Shown here one piece after another: positions 1 to 49,022 of a stretch of 64,000 nucleotides of DNA. A program made the translations under genes and the position numbers. Every line of letters starts with the position of its first letter. Position 1 is the stretch's first letter. The notes under the pieces are model-generated. The model was not told the origin of the DNA and made no database searches. It saw only the letters and a list, made by a program, of their open reading frames with translations. The DNA lies in contig JAOSJX010000024.1 of assembly GCA_027493875.1 (NCBI GenBank), forward strand, positions 62,001-126,000, in the 5' to 3' direction. The stretch is from Deltaproteobacteria bacterium. GTDB taxonomy: Bacteria; Lernaellota; Lernaellaia; JACKCT01.

Positions 1-1259
1 GTTTCGAGCGCGACGGAAACGACCCCGGAAGTCGTCACGCTGAACGAAGGCGCGTACGACGGCTATTTTGAAGGCGAGATCCAAACCGACGCCGGCGCAC
101 CGGCGTCCGACGGTAAAATCCAGGTTGTCGACGGCGACACGATCACCGTCACCTACGTCGACGCGAACGACGGCGACGGCGGCATCAACGTCCCGAAAAG
201 CGACGTCGTCGAAATCGATTGCGCCCCGCCCGTCTTCGGCGGACTCACCGGCCTCACGCCGCTCGACAACGAAGTCGAATTAACGTGGGACCCCGCCACC
301 GCGCCGGAGGCGATCGTCTATAACGTCTACCGCGCGGACGCGTCCGGCGGGCAGGATTTTGACCAGCCGACCTACGCCGCGGTGGAATCGCCCTTCGTCG
401 ATCCCAACGCGCCGAGCGGCATCGAGTGGTTCTACGTCGTGCGCGCGGCGGACCCCTGGGCAACGACGACGGCAACACCGTCGAACTTTCCGGGACGCCG
501 ACCGGACCCGACCGTCTCTTCTGGGACAACTTCGATTTCGACGCATGGCGGCCGACGCTGTCCCTGCCGGATTGGACCGTCATCGACTATCGCAACGACG
601 AGATGACGTGGTCGGAGGAAAACCAGATCGGCCGGACCTCCGATTACTGGCAGGGAAAATTCGCGATCGCCGACCACGGCGCCGCCGCCGAGTTCATCAA
701 AATGGACGAACAGCTCGTCACGCCGCCCATCGACTGCTCGCGTCACGAGGACGTGAAAATCGCGTTCTCGCACACCTTCTCCAAAGGGCTGTTCGAAACC
801 GCATCCGTGGACTGGTCCTACGACGCGCAAAATTGGACGCCCGTTATTAAATATTGGGCCAGCGGCGAAGGCGAGGAGGAATTCGACGTCCCTGACGCCG
901 ATTTGCACGAGCAGGTTTTCTTCCGTTTCTATTACGCCAACGCACGCCTGACCGGCGAATACTGGGGCGTGGATAACGTCCAGGTCACCGGCGTGCCCAG
1001 CACGGCCCCGCCGATCACCACGACGACCACGACAACCACCACGCCGAGCAGCACGACGACGACGACCATCCCGGCGGATGACGATACGGGCGATGACGAT
1101 ACCGCCGACGACGACACGGTGGACGAGGATACCGGCGATGACGATTCAGCGGACGATGACGCGTCCGACGATGACAACATCGATGACGATAGCGGCGACG
1201 TCGACGAACTCCCGGCGGGAGACGATGACGATGACGACGCCGGCTGCTGCGGCTGCTAA
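1..1259 (+). CDS. Secreted multidomain protein, 5' truncated by the window (FnIII-like segment, jelly-roll/cleaved-adhesin-like domain, Thr-rich and Asp-rich linkers, C-terminal AGCCGC); apparent frameshift near 462
   Basis: Frame 1 reads VSSATETTPEVVTLNEGAYDGYFEGEIQ...YNVYRADASGG...WFYVVRAADPW, then continues in the frame of ORF 426..1259 (GNDDGNTVELSGTPTG...WGVDNVQVTGVP-TTTTTTTT-DDDTGDDD...DDDDDDAGCCGC*). The shift is at the C/G run cccctgggc. Confidence 0.7.
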
Positions 1260-1267
1260 GTAACATT

Positions 1268-1347
1268 CAGGTTACAGGCTACAGGTCACAGGTTACAGGT
1301 CACAGGCTACCACGCCGACGGCGTGGCAGGCTGCAGGCTACAGGTTA
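1268..1347. repeat. Heptanucleotide array CAGGYYA (6 + 3 copies) interrupted by a 17-bp palindrome CCACGCCGACGGCGTGG
   Basis: Direct reading: CAGGTTA CAGGCTA CAGGTCA CAGGTTA CAGGTCA CAGGCTA | CCACGCCGACGGCGTGG | CAGGCTG CAGGCTA CAGGTTA. Confidence 0.9.
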
Positions 1348-1356
1348 CCGTGGGGC

Positions 1357-1416
1357 GCGGACTCGCCGAGGTGAGTCCGCGCCAATTCGCTCCGCGGACT
1401 CACCCGGTGAGTCCGC
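1357..1416. repeat. REP-like hairpin doublet (GCGGACTC...GAGTCCGC twice)
   Basis: 1357-1364/1373-1380 GCGGACTC/GAGTCCGC and 1394-1402/1408-1416 GCGGACTCA-CCCGG-TGAGTCCGC. Confidence 0.8.
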
Positions 1417-1549
1417 CGTCGTCCAAGCCTCATGCCACACTCCCTCAAGCCTTTTTCGCACCGTGCCACGCCTCAAGCCGCAAGCCCCACGCCGTTTGAT
1501 TCGCTCCCCCTTACCGCGTTTTGACCGGACGGATCGCGACAACGGCGGA

Positions 1550-1577
1550 CGTATCTCGTATATCGTATGTCGTATGT
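1550..1577. repeat. Heptanucleotide array CGTATNT x4
   Basis: CGTATCT CGTATAT CGTATGT CGTATGT. Confidence 0.85.
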
Positions 1578-1610
1578 CGAAATAAGGCGCGCTGTGGCGC
1601 GGAATGGCCG

Positions 1611-1696
1611 CACGCCGAAGGCGTGGTTATCCGGTTATCGGTTGTTCAGTTATCCGGTTGTTCGGTTGGCCACGCCGAAGGCGTGGTTGTCCGGTT
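1611..1696. repeat. Two CACGCCGAAGGCGTGG palindromes 60 bp apart with GGTTATC/GGTTGTC-type iterations between them
   Basis: CACGCCGAAGGCGTGG at 1611-1626 and 1671-1686, each followed by TTRTCCGGTT. Confidence 0.8.
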
Positions 1697-1882
1697 GTTG
1701 CGTTTCGAGAGGCCGGCGGCGAATATTGGGTTCCGGACGCAGATGCGGTGTCGCCCTTGCCGCGACGGATTTCGCGCGCGGAAATGCGCGGCGAGAGAAA
1801 ATCCAAGAACGCACGAAAGCACTAACTTAATGCGTGTCCCGGGTTATCCCTGTTTTCCTACAGGCTCAATGCGCCGGCCCCC

Positions 1883-1938
1883 TGGCTATCGGCTACCGTC
1901 GACCGGCCACTGGCCACTGGCCACCGGCCACCGGCCAC
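1883..1938. repeat. Heptanucleotide array YGGCYAY x8
   Basis: TGGCTAT CGGCTAC CGTCGAC CGGCCAC TGGCCAC TGGCCAC CGGCCAC CGGCCAC. Confidence 0.9.
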
Positions 1939-1942
1939 AAAT

Positions 1943-3484
1943 TCAACATCCGCAGCACGACGCGTCGTCATCGTCGTCGTCATCGTCGTTGTCATTGTTC
2001 GCGTCGTCGTCAATGTCATCGTCCGAATCGTCGCCGGCGGAATCGTCATCGTCATCAACTCCGGCGCACTGTCCCACGCTGTCGAAAAAGGTCCGCCAAT
2101 GTTCGTTGCCGTCCGCGTCGTATTTGAGAACGACCACGTCTCGCCGACCTTCAACGAATGTCGAACCGGCGACGTAAACGCTCCCGTCGTCGGCGAGAGC
2201 CAACCGAGCGTCGCGTTCGTCGGCATTAGCGCTGTCGCCGCAATAGGCGCGCTGCCAAAGCACCTCACCCGCGTTTCCGTATTTGCGAACCATTAAAACG
2301 TCGCCCGCAACGCAATCTTCATCTCCGACGACATCCGACGCCGGATTGGATGCTGTGTAAACGTTCGCCGTGTTATCCACTGCCACGGTGATGGACAAGT
2401 CGTACCAGCTACCGCTTCCGGCCTGATACGAGTCGGACCACCCTTTATCGCCCGAAGCGAGGTATCGTTGGATAAAATACGCAACCGGTGTGTCAGAGGT
2501 AAGACCGGCGACAATCGCGCCGTCGTCCGGCGTCGCCCGAACAGCGATCGGATGCGCGCTTGTAGGTTCTGGGTCGGTCGTGGACCAAATGATCTCGCCG
2601 TCACCGTCAATTTTCGTAACGTTAACGGTATCGGGAAAATAATTCGGATTCGGATCTTCCCAAACCAAACTCGCAAAAATGATCGTCTCGTCTTCGCCGA
2701 TGTCCGCCGCCGCGACAAATTCCGACCCCAAGGGAACTAAGTCAAATATCCATCCATCCAATAGTTCACCGTCCGACGAAAATACCGAAATCTTGGTATT
2801 GCTGGTGGCGTAACAATCATCTGTTGGACACTCGGTCCCGACGACGTAAGCGCGATCGGAACTCCCCAGGAGAAGATCAAGGGCAAATTCGCCGACGGGA
2901 GACTCGACCCAATTTGGAAACCAGGCGTCATCGAGCGCGCCTTCTCGAAAATGAAACACATTGTATTGCCCATAAATGTCGATCATCGTCGCGTACATGA
3001 GCGCATAAACATTGTCCGTTCCTGCCGAAGTGAGAACGAGAACGTGGGCATTCGACATCACCTTTTCCGCAAGTTTCGAACCCATTGTCGAATAGTAAAT
3101 CGCTATGGAGTGGACGAGCCCATCCTCGTCGCCCACGTCGGTATTGTCGCCGGCGAGATAGAAACCCTTCGGTGTCGTCGCAACGTGTTTTGGCGTCACA
3201 TCGACGCTATAGTCGCGCCAGATCTCTGCGCCATCGCCATCGAAAGTCGCGATATAACCCGGGGCGCCGAGGCGATCCGTCGGAAAATGGGAGACGCCGG
3301 TAATGACGATTCCGCCTTCGCCAACGATTCCGAGATCCGCAATGGTATCGGTGCAACCATCACCCGCTTCCATTCCGGTTGAGGCTCTAGCGTTCGCCGA
3401 CGCCACGCACAGGATACCAGCCAAGGCCGCCGCGACCATCGCCGGCAACCGGCAAGCCGCGTCACCAAGTGATTCCGAAGCCAT
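1943..3484 (-). CDS. Secreted beta-propeller-like protein with Asp-rich linker and C-terminal ASCCGC
   Basis: Start at MASESLGDAACRLPAMVAAALAGILCVASANARA (Sec signal); repeats such as WSTTDPEPTSAHPIAVRATPDDGAIVAG; ends GDDSDDDIDDDANNDNDDDDDDDDASCCGC*. Confidence 0.75.
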   Translation of the reverse strand: MASESLGDAACRLPAMVAAALAGILCVASANARASTGMEAGDGCTDTIADLGIVGEGGIVITGVSHFPTDRLGAPGYIATFDGDGAEIWRDYSVDVTPKHVATTPKGFYLAGDNTDVGDEDGLVHSIAIYYSTMGSKLAEKVMSNAHVLVLTSAGTDNVYALMYATMIDIYGQYNVFHFREGALDDAWFPNWVESPVGEFALDLLLGSSDRAYVVGTECPTDDCYATSNTKISVFSSDGELLDGWIFDLVPLGSEFVAAADIGEDETIIFASLVWEDPNPNYFPDTVNVTKIDGDGEIIWSTTDPEPTSAHPIAVRATPDDGAIVAGLTSDTPVAYFIQRYLASGDKGWSDSYQAGSGSWYDLSITVAVDNTANVYTASNPASDVVGDEDCVAGDVLMVRKYGNAGEVLWQRAYCGDSANADERDARLALADDGSVYVAGSTFVEGRRDVVVLKYDADGNEHWRTFFDSVGQCAGVDDDDDSAGDDSDDDIDDDANNDNDDDDDDDDASCCGC

Positions 3485-16166: not shown

Positions 16167-16244
16167 TCATCGCGTACTATTTTCCCACGCCGCGCCCACC
16201 AGGACCAGAGGAACGTTACGCCTCCACGATGCCTTCTCTTTTTT

Positions 16245-16270
16245 CATCCCTCATCCTTCATCCTTCATCC
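16245..16270. repeat. Heptanucleotide array CATCCYT x3.7
   Basis: CATCCCT CATCCTT CATCCTT CATCC. Confidence 0.8.
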
Positions 16271-16350
16271 CCCCACAATGGCTGACAGAATCGCCCAATC
16301 GTGTTAGCCCTTAAACTCCCGAGTTCAACAAAGGCGGAGAGAAGCGGGTT

Positions 16351-46218: not shown

Positions 46219-49022
46219 TTGACCGATCGCCTCGCGCGAAACGCTGTTCGCCGGGCGGATCGGGCAACGCCTCCCGGGGATGGATTGTCGAGGCGGACCG
46301 CGCTCGTCGCTTTCCTATTGATCGCGGTGCTTGTCGCCGGAACGGCGATGGACGCCGGCGCGCGCGTCATCGTCTGGGAAGACTTCCTCAACGCCATTCC
46401 GGATTCGTGGACGGTCGTCGACAATTTTCTCGGATTGCCCTGGTCGGCCCCGTGGTATTTCAACCTGAACATGTATCCCTATCGCGTCGGCGGCTATAAC
46501 CCGACCTATCCGTACGGTTATACCGCGTGGAGCAACGTGGACGCCTACTGCGCGATCGCGAACAGCGACTTCTGGGGTCTCTACGCGTATTTCAACCTCG
46601 GTTTCCTGTTCCCTACGCGCCCGCGGACACGGAACTGATTTCGAATTACGTCGACCTGTCCATGTTCTCCAACGTGGAGGTCAGTTTCAGCAGCGATTTT
46701 CAGAATCTGACCGGCGCCGGCGACGAGGCGTCGTTCTACGTGGAAAATCCCGGCGCGACCACCATTCTCAACTACATCAACCAGACGCATTTCGACGAGA
46801 ACGTCAATTTCGATATCTCCGGAATCGCGGATGGCCAATCGCAGGTGCGGCTGCGTTGGCGGTACCAGACGGGAAGCTTCTGGGATCTGTGGTGGGCGAT
46901 CGACAACGTGCTGCTCGAAGGCGACTGCGCCGCGACGGCGGACGGCGCCATGGAAGAGGACGACAACGGTTTTGAAAATTCCGTCGCGCTCACCGGCGGG
47001 GTGTTCGACTCGGTCGCGTGCCTGACGCCCGACGAGTACCCGTCCTACCTGACCGAAGTCTGGGTCGCCATTTTCGCCGGCGGCCAGCCCGCGTGCGACG
47101 TCGATCTCGTCGTCTACGAGGACACCGACGGGACCGGCCCGCCCGAGCGTTTCCCGCTGTTCGTCGGCAATTTCACGCCGATCCTCGACTCGTGGAACAT
47201 CTTCGACATGACCTTGTTTTCGCAGTTCGACGTTCCGATCACGTCCGGCTCGTGGTGCATCGGCCTGCGTTACAACAACTGCACCGGCGGAAGTTACCTC
47301 GGCATCGACCAGAGCACCAACCAGGGGCATAGCTGGGCCGGATCGCCGTCCGGCGGATGGATCACCGCGAACGATCTCGGCTATCCGGGCAATTGGGCCG
47401 TGCGCGCGTACGATGAGTACTGCACGATCCCGACCACCACCACGACGACGACCACCACGACCACCAGTTCGTCGTCGACCACGACCACCACCACCACGAC
47501 GACGTCCTCGTCGACGACAACCAGCTCGTCGTCCACCACGACGACATCGTCATCGACCACGACGACGTCTTCGTCCTCGACGACGACAAGTTCGTCGTCA
47601 ACAACGACCACGTCCTCGTCCTCCACGACGACCAGTTCTTCCAGCACGACCACCACGTCTTCGTCGACGACGACCACAAGCTCCTCGTCAACCACGACCT
47701 CGTCGTCGTCCACCACAACGACATCGTCGTCCTCAACCACAACGAGCTCTTCCAGCACGACCACCACGTCATCGTCGACGACGACGACAAGTTCCTCGTC
47801 GACAACAACTTCGTCGTCCACCACAACGACGTCTTCGTCCTCCACGACCACATCGTCGTCCTCAACAACGACGAGCTCTTCCAGTACGACCACCACGTCT
47901 TCGTCGACGACGACGACGAGCTCCTCGTCGACAACGACCAGCTCGTCCTCGACGACCACCACCTCGTCTTCGAGCACGACCACGTCGTCGTCCTCGACAA
48001 CCACGAGTTCCTCGTCAACGACCACCACGGCGCCGACCACGACGACAACGACGTCGACGTCTTCCTCCACCACGACGACGTCCCCGGCGACGACCACAAC
48101 GACCTCGTCGTCTACGACCACCTCCTCATCCTCGACAACGACGGTGCCGACAACCACCACCACAACGTCCACCACGGCGCCGGCCACGACGACCACGACC
48201 ACAACGTCCTCCTCGACGACCACCACGGCGCCGCCGACCACGACGACCACATCGTCTTCATCGACAACGACGTCCTCGAGTTCCACGACGACTTCGTCCT
48301 CCTCGACCACCACGAGTTCGTCGTCCACCACCACGTCGTCCTCGTCGACGACGACGGCGCCGGGGACCACGACGACCACGGCCCCCGGGACAACGACCAC
48401 GACCATCCCGGGAACCACGACCACGACGGCGCCCAGCACAACGTCCACCACATCGACCACCACGCCCGGCACCACGACGACGACGGCGCCGGGGACGACC
48501 ACCACCGTGCCGGGAACCACAACAACCACGGCGCCAGGGACCACCACGACGACCGCTCCGGGGACGACCACCACCACCGCGCCGGGAACCACGACAACCA
48601 CCGCGCCCGGGACCACGACAACGACCGCTCCGGGAACGACGACGACGACGGTGACGACCACGACATCGACCACCACGACGACCGCGGGCGGCGATGACGA
48701 CACCGGCGACGATGATACGAGTGATGACGACACCGGCGACGATGATACGGGTGATGACGACACCGGTGACGACGACACGGGCGATGACGATACCAGCGAC
48801 GACGACACGGACGATGACGATACCGGCGACGATGATGTGGACGACGACAGTGATGACGATACGTCGGACGACGACTCGTTCGATGACGATTCCTTCGACG
48901 ACGACTCGGGCGGCGAACCGTTCCCGCCGGATGACGACGACGACGCGGCGCAGGCCCGCGAAGGCGACGTCAGCGGCGGCACGGGCGGCTGCAACTGCGA
49001 CGGCGGCTTGCAGACCGGTTGA
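46219..49022 (+). CDS. Secreted protein: jelly-roll-like domain, ~400-aa Thr/Ser/Pro mucin-like region, Asp-rich linker, Cys-containing tail GGCNCDGGLQTG; apparent frameshift near 46612
   Basis: RRTALVAFLLIAVLVAGTAMDAGARVIVWEDFLNAIPDSWTVVDN... continues in ORF 46527..49022; TTTSSSSTTTT..., APGTTTTT repeats, DDDTGDDD... Confidence 0.8.
47431..48690. repeat. 1.26-kb ACC/ACG/TCG-type trinucleotide low-complexity tract encoding Thr/Ser/Pro
   Basis: Direct reading: (TTTSSSS)n then (APGTTTTT)n. Confidence 0.9.

Follow-up and report, generated by a model that had tools for sequence, protein, structure and literature searches.

Within about 670 bp (positions 1268-1938) of one stretch of bacterial DNA, several tandem arrays with different unit sequences lie between the same two genes, and most have units of seven bases. 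A reading of the sequence alone ascribed them to a process that generates heptads, such as replication slippage or an enzyme footprint, rather than to the spread of one repeat. We asked what is constant in these arrays and which process could account for it. The stretch analysed, 64,000 nucleotides long (G000:C24:62001-126000, hereafter the window), belongs to a genome of 5.21 Mb in 28 contigs, G000.

Heptanucleotide arrays between two convergent genes

The features of the locus are listed by window position.

426-1259, + strand: left flanking open reading frame (ORF) with an Asp-rich tail, end ...DDDDDDAGCCGC; its upstream half lies in another frame (1-606)
1268-1309, + strand: Array A, CAGGYYA x6; first unit 8 bp past the stop codon of the + strand gene, G-rich strand outward
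1310-1326: palindrome CCACGCCGACGGCGTGG, 17 bp, between both CAGGYYA blocks (direct reading)
1327-1347, + strand: second block of Array A, CAGGCTG CAGGCTA CAGGTTA (x3; direct reading)
1550-1577, + strand: Array B, CGTATNT x4, within a dispersed repeat shared with G000:C23 at about 128980-129080
1610-1626: palindrome GCACGCCGAAGGCGTGG (direct reading)
1625-1667, + strand: GGTTATCC/GGTTGTTC iterations, period mainly 8 (direct reading, Tandem Repeats Finder)
1670-1686: palindrome CCACGCCGAAGGCGTGG, then GGTTGTCC GGTTGTTG up to 1700 (direct reading)
1882-1937, - strand: Array C, CYGGCYA-type units in phase, strict x5 at 1903-1937; lies downstream of the - strand gene, 4 bp from its stop codon
1943-3637, - strand: right flanking ORF with an Asp-rich tail, end ...DDDDDDDDASCCGC
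16243-16271: fourth period-7 array of the window, TCATCCY x4, between divergent ORFs

The flanking genes are convergent and tail-bearing, as the sequence-only reading had described; an Asp-rich tail with CCGC closes both. The right ORF matched the SBBP beta-propeller lipoprotein model weakly, far under the model cut-off. The CAGGYYA (six plus three copies), CGTATNT (four copies) and YGGCYA-type arrays of that reading were all confirmed by direct reading and recovered by Tandem Repeats Finder. Self-match at lag 7 was 0.388 in 1260-1942 (z = 6.8 against 300 second-order Markov shuffles); lags 14, 21 and 28 were likewise raised and, among lags up to 30, only lag 8 exceeded z = 2 besides the multiples of seven (z = 2.2). 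A GGTTRTC-like iteration had also been counted among the heptads, but the DNA at 1625-1700 runs mainly at period 8 (GGTTATCC GGTTATC GGTTGTTC AGTTATCC GGTTGTTC). Within the window, the palindromes at 1310-1326, 1610-1626 and 1670-1686 share the form CCACGCCGNNGGCGTGG and adjoin arrays. The dispersed repeat CGCGTTTTGAMCGGACGRATCGCGACAACG...TCGRAATAAGG bears the CGTATNT array at window 1510-1600 and at G000:C23:128980-129080.

Period-7 excess and unit families in the genome

A genome-wide scan for period 7, set beforehand as the test, was carried out on a 1.264-Mb sample of G000 (five contigs). An array was called at ≥18/21 matches at the given lag, and the noncoding set was defined by a crude purpose-written gene caller. 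Noncoding arrays numbered 38 at period 7, 15 at period 14, 11 at period 21, 7 at period 6 and 4 each at periods 8 and 9, and at the same threshold this sample held none at periods 4, 5, 10, 11 and 13. The predicted excess was thus borne out (38 arrays versus 0-4 at periods 4, 5, 8, 10, 11 and 13). A shuffled control gave no period-7 array, and the coding DNA of the sample held 9 versus the 38 in noncoding DNA.

About a dozen unit families were found in G000 (CAGGYYA, RGGATGA, GTAGGTR, CYGGCNA, RCGAGGT, NTTGGTT, GRCGAAT, CGTATRT, CAGTTRA, GGCTTGR, CCTTYGT and others), and the same few families reappear at many loci. Across the whole genome the CAGGYYA pattern CAGGYYACAGGYYACAGG had 83 overlapping matches on many contigs, and its reversed form had 0. 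Families pass into one another in phase inside single arrays, at C22:54568 (CAGGTCG to CAGGTCA to CAGGTTA), at C22:100640 (CCTTYGT to CCTTCAT) and at C12:45163. The presumed independence of the sequence families had to be given up, given a few families at many loci, drift inside arrays and the same-family inverted pairs described below.

Copy numbers were counted for families that include units of the relative G002 described below. Runs of GAGGATN numbered 7, 4, 13, 2 and 1 at two, three, four, five and six copies; those of GTAGGTR 2, 8 and 1 at three, four and five; those of RGGATGA 4, 4 and 6 at two, three and four; and those of RATTGAA 4 and 1 at four and five. The preference for four copies is present in these four families, is seen in GAGRAAA arrays as well, and is absent from CAGGYYA and CTGGCNA, whose copy numbers reach 19 and 31.

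Period 7 in relatives and other phyla

The phylum comparison comprised seven genomes (G000-G006). G002, from a sister genus in the same family, had 31 period-7 arrays in 314 kb, with the units GAGGATY, GAGRAAA, RATTGAA and GTGAGAA, and G004 had 3 in 65 kb. No period-7 array reached the threshold in the sampled DNA of G001, G003, G005 and G006 (230, 46, 60 and 143 kb, respectively), which does contain period-6, 9 or 21 repeats; one looser period-7 stretch was seen in G001 below the threshold. The CAGGYYA pattern was absent from all six relatives of G000. Given that relatives keep period 7 with other units, the period travels and the sequence does not.

Public genome contigs were scanned with the 18-base CAGGYYA pattern, and at least 115 contigs matched. 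Since we estimate that about 120 exact chance matches are expected for a collection of that size, the public matches were checked. Genuine period-7 arrays were present in 87 of the 115 matching contigs listed; among these matches, the phyla with arrays were Bacteroidota, Cyanobacteria, Chloroflexota, Planctomycetota, Acidobacteriota, Patescibacteria, Elusimicrobia, Omnitrophota, Actinomycetota, Pseudomonadota and others. Arrays lying 60 bp or more from the query match, hence not selected for period, were counted as independent. In the 115 contigs listed they numbered 99 at period 7, 19 at period 8, 10 at period 9, 5 each at periods 6, 10 and 12, 1 each at periods 5 and 11, and 0 at period 4, a distribution suggestive of a threshold at seven with decay beyond it. 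Collectively, the many units, the other units of relatives and the cross-phylum excess (99 arrays versus at most 19 at any other period among the matches listed) lead to the conclusion that no single ancestral element accounts for the arrays, as the sequence-only reading had held.

Frameshifted genes in G000 could raise the suspicion that the arrays are an artefact of assembly or sequencing. However, the layout is identical in the separate assemblies of G002 and G004, isolate genomes of other phyla also carry period-7 arrays, and the layout has been published for Xanthomonas (PMC4692102). The artefact explanation is refuted by these independent genomes, and we give it next to no probability.

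Comparison with known heptameric repeats

The arrays have a 7-bp tandem unit, at least two to three copies, a mostly intergenic position and a dispersed distribution in the genome; by these criteria they are short intergenic heptameric tandem repeats, of the STRR or long simple sequence repeat class. Heptameric STRRs of cyanobacteria, for example of the CCCCA(G/A)T type, were reportedly described by Mazel in 1990. Like these, our arrays are degenerate, intergenic heptads with several families per genome, and the Nostoc locus aligned below belongs to the STRR type; unlike these, they occur in a different lineage and their units are mostly different.

For the GGGAATC heptads of Xanthomonas and the GGGGA(C/T)T heptads of Nostoc, the gene-edge layout reported below has been published and linked to G-quadruplexes; four units are favoured in Xanthomonas, and an intramolecular quadruplex needs at least four copies (PMC4692102). 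Our arrays have in common with them the G-rich strand downstream on the coding or upstream on the non-coding strand and, in several families, the four-unit preference. The Xanthomonas and Nostoc repeats, however, are one type of quadruplex-capable G-tract, whereas a dozen families in one genome show the same layout here, many arrays lack four GG runs, and G-tracts of that type do not define the set. The TAACTGA direct repeats of Beggiatoaceae are likewise intergenic heptanucleotides at many loci, in two to six copies; they consist of a single unit, mostly pointing at start codons, and were proposed as a translational regulatory site (PMC4679880), whereas the arrays here have many units. As cited in these two papers (PMC4692102, PMC4679880), Mrazek and co-workers reported in 2007 that heptamers are the commonest class of long simple sequence repeats in many bacterial genomes, and proposed slippage with seven as the length of DNA held by the polymerase. 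The slippage or footprint idea of the sequence-only reading was thus anticipated. The period-7 excess and this hypothesis are shared with our arrays; edge polarity and pairing are absent from the 2007 description in the form in which those papers cite it.

Placement, polarity and pairing at gene edges

The arrays abut ORFs, with a median outer distance of 5.5 bp to the nearest 3' edge. At the left edge of gaps, the + strand was the G-rich one in 38 arrays against 10, and at the right edge in 7 against 30 (Fisher p = 2.6e-8); G002 taken alone gave 14/1 and 1/15. Sorted by gene end, 3' edges had 43 sense-G versus 14 sense-C arrays, and 5' edges 3 versus 25. The outward 3' strand was therefore G-rich at both kinds of edge, in each gene orientation with enough cases. 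Contigs of other phyla showed the same direction more weakly among the matches listed (41/26 and 16/35, p = 0.0016).

Neighbouring arrays in one gap were often inverted members of one family. In G000, 6 such neighbours were observed against 1.7 expected from shuffling of partners (P = 0.0015); in G002, 5 were observed versus 3.3 expected, which is not significant (P = 0.13). The G-arm came first in 11/11 inverted pairs of the two genomes. In the other phyla, the count of inverted same-family neighbours was 11 versus 2 among the matches listed. Some array pairs flank terminator-like hairpins. In G002 gaps such as L097:9537-10807, L115:5428-5832 and L121:1692-2009, heptads co-occur with GGAAGGCT octads and with ACACGGAGG and CATGGACAT nonads, and the motif ATCGCAA or ATCGCAT lies on the gap side of several different arrays in G002.

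The arrays could have been selected for a structure that acts at transcript ends, either a G-quadruplex or a long stem-loop between two paired arms. Their position right after stop codons, the quadruplex minimum of four copies, the stems that paired arms could form and the hairpins between some pairs would all fit. However, arrays containing three GG runs or fewer kept the polarity (left 15/0, right 3/6, p = 6e-4), and four GGG runs occur in just two arrays, which makes the quadruplex unlikely as the common cause. RATTGAA and GAGRAAA arrays favour four copies too. A selected stem would favour variant copies in register, yet in the four G002 pairs inspected the variants in one arm are out of register with those in the other, and we rejected a selected stem between paired arms. 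Overall, we consider the structural explanation distinctly unlikely.

Avoidance of Shine-Dalgarno-like sequences was rejected as the whole cause of polarity, since 3' edges are polar too. A stop-codon idea, based on the TAA, TAG or TGA held in the reverse complement of CAGGYYA, fits that family by inspection and does not fit CTGGCNA, RCGAGGT or CGTATNT.

Change in place at an orthologous Nostoc locus

An orthologous region was compared in four Nostoc genomes, two represented by contigs of the public set and two added. Within DNA that is otherwise colinear, the left array contains GGGGACT about 7, 3, 5 and 1 times, the single copy having resulted from a 137-bp deletion that starts inside the array. 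The right, C-rich array keeps its place, direction and period, and its unit differs among the four (CCCCAAT, CCCCAGT, CCCAATG and CCCCATG). In a second gap, compared between two Nostoc species, the length difference likewise starts within an array. At the one locus followed, the flanks are colinear and present even in species with few units, unlike the pattern of an insertion at an empty site with target duplication. Orthologous arrays persist between species without rearrangement.

Candidate genes and rival generators

No enzyme gene responsible for the heptads was found among the Y1 transposase, Ku, MutS and Y-family polymerase candidates. The Y1 (IS200-type) transposase domain had 23 matches in G000, several near-identical in score (e.g. 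C25:74118-75126, C2:343043-343402 and C23:430766-431125). It was rejected as a discriminating gene, since every one of the seven phylum genomes has matches, even where the sampled DNA showed no array. Ku was found only in G002 among the seven, and MutS was present in all seven; Ku, confined to one array-bearing genome, and the loss of MutS were both rejected as causes. All four array-free genomes carry an intact Y-family polymerase domain; G002 has none, the G004 match is weak, and in G000 the domain is divided between two reading frames. Its loss would fit the phylum, but among 30 array-bearing genomes of other groups the domain was found in 23, with a strong match in 22, and loss was rejected. 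Given similar splits in the G000 MutS, the split of the polymerase gene suggests assembly indels. Frameshifted genes in G000 include the left flanking gene (window 1-1259), MutS (three pieces) and the Y-family polymerase (two pieces), with coordinates including G000:C1:283434-284003 and G000:C23:249376-249820. These frameshifts suggest indel errors of assembly, consistent with the 78% completeness of the genome.

In a mobile-element reading, the arrays would form the arms, seen as inverted pairs, of small mobile or dispersed elements of the REP/BIME or MITE kind, and a transposase, for instance a Y1 enzyme of the IS200/RAYT type, would have moved them. The constant G-arm-first order of same-family pairs, the palindromes between the window arrays, the ATCGCAA motif beside different arrays in G002, the dispersed repeat around the window CGTATNT array and the Y1 matches in G000 are consistent with such elements. 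REP/BIME repeats with RAYT transposases are likewise short, intergenic, near gene ends, in inverted pairs and close to palindromes. In contrast to them, the heptads are sequence-variable and probably lack a conserved hairpin unit, though one palindrome form recurs in the window; Y1 genes do not track array presence. Nostoc species with few units have the orthologous DNA beside the array, so that an inserted element is ruled out there, and the layout is constant while units differ between loci. We regard this explanation as unlikely.

Alternatively, repair could add G-rich heptads to 3' ends at intergenic breaks and the ends then be joined, so that gaps would resemble two telomere-like ends head to head. 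The G-rich outward 3' strand at both kinds of gene edge, the frequent use of one family for both arms of a gap and the two Nostoc length differences with a breakpoint inside an array would agree with it. Against it, the candidate genes yielded no enzyme, Ku occurs only in G002, the Y-family polymerase link fails outside the phylum, and the Nostoc arrays persist without rearrangement. This account appears very unlikely.

In-place change as the proposed generator

In-place expansion, contraction and homogenisation of whole units is the best-supported generator, to which we would give about an even chance. Arrays would grow, shrink and change their unit in place by seven-base steps, presumably through strand slippage or mispairing of neighbouring copies, slippage being the molecular step that we infer. 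New variants would be homogenised within an array, so that one family turns gradually into another at a constant period of seven. Seven itself may be the length of duplex held by the polymerase, as Mrazek's proposal, in its cited form, would have it. Selection or a second mechanism would then limit survival to arrays beside gene ends with the G-rich strand outward, often as an inverted same-family pair across the gap.

The heptad-generating process of the sequence-only reading thus stands in part. The shared period, the many units and the in-place change in Nostoc speak for it. Slippage or a footprint alone, however, predicts neither the outward-G polarity nor the same-family inverted pairs; it predicts a steady fall-off in length, yet several families peak at four copies, and spread or convergence is suggested by the recurrence of one family at many loci. 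The slippage account does not derive seven from first principles, and the in-place evidence comes from one well-aligned locus in another phylum. Given that pure slippage does not predict polarity, pairing and the four-copy peak, an added cause is needed. One candidate is the loss of Shine-Dalgarno-like G-rich arrays upstream of start codons, which might explain part of the polarity and would cover 5' edges only. R-loops that form behind the last ribosome would, past the stop codon, favour G on the sense strand; loss by recombination of arrays longer than about 25 bp would hold the copy number near four; and 3'-end addition during repair could also contribute.

The arrays conserve a seven-base spacing and a placement, not any one sequence. 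We found no accepted reason for the number seven in the literature. Together, G000 and the sister genus set what stays constant (period, placement, polarity and pairing) apart from what is free (unit sequence), and this separation makes the polymerase-footprint, quadruplex and mobile-element ideas individually testable. A wider and considerably less likely generalisation is that, across many phyla, one sequence-blind process or selective rule both lays down and maintains heptads, about four at a time, beside gene ends, with the G-rich 3' strand outward and often mirrored across the gap. STRRs, the Xanthomonas and Nostoc G-repeats and the window arrays would then be instances of it, and the cause would be a general replication or repair property of intergenic DNA rather than G-quadruplexes or element spread. 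If general, the layout would let a replication or repair process at gene boundaries be read from the sequence, and its rapid evolution would make it useful as a marker for strain typing.

Asp-rich tails and coding repeats

An Asp-rich tail with GCGC or CCGC ends many proteins, at window 1200-1259 and 1943-2060 (- strand) and in about 30 genes of the G000 sample, and looks like a C-terminal sorting signal. GGCCAGT-type heptads directly follow the stop codon of several Asp-tail genes, including three tandem paralogues in L169. At window 47431-48650, about 1.2 kb of ACC/GAC-rich tandem repeats lie within an ORF and are followed by an Asp-rich repeat region.
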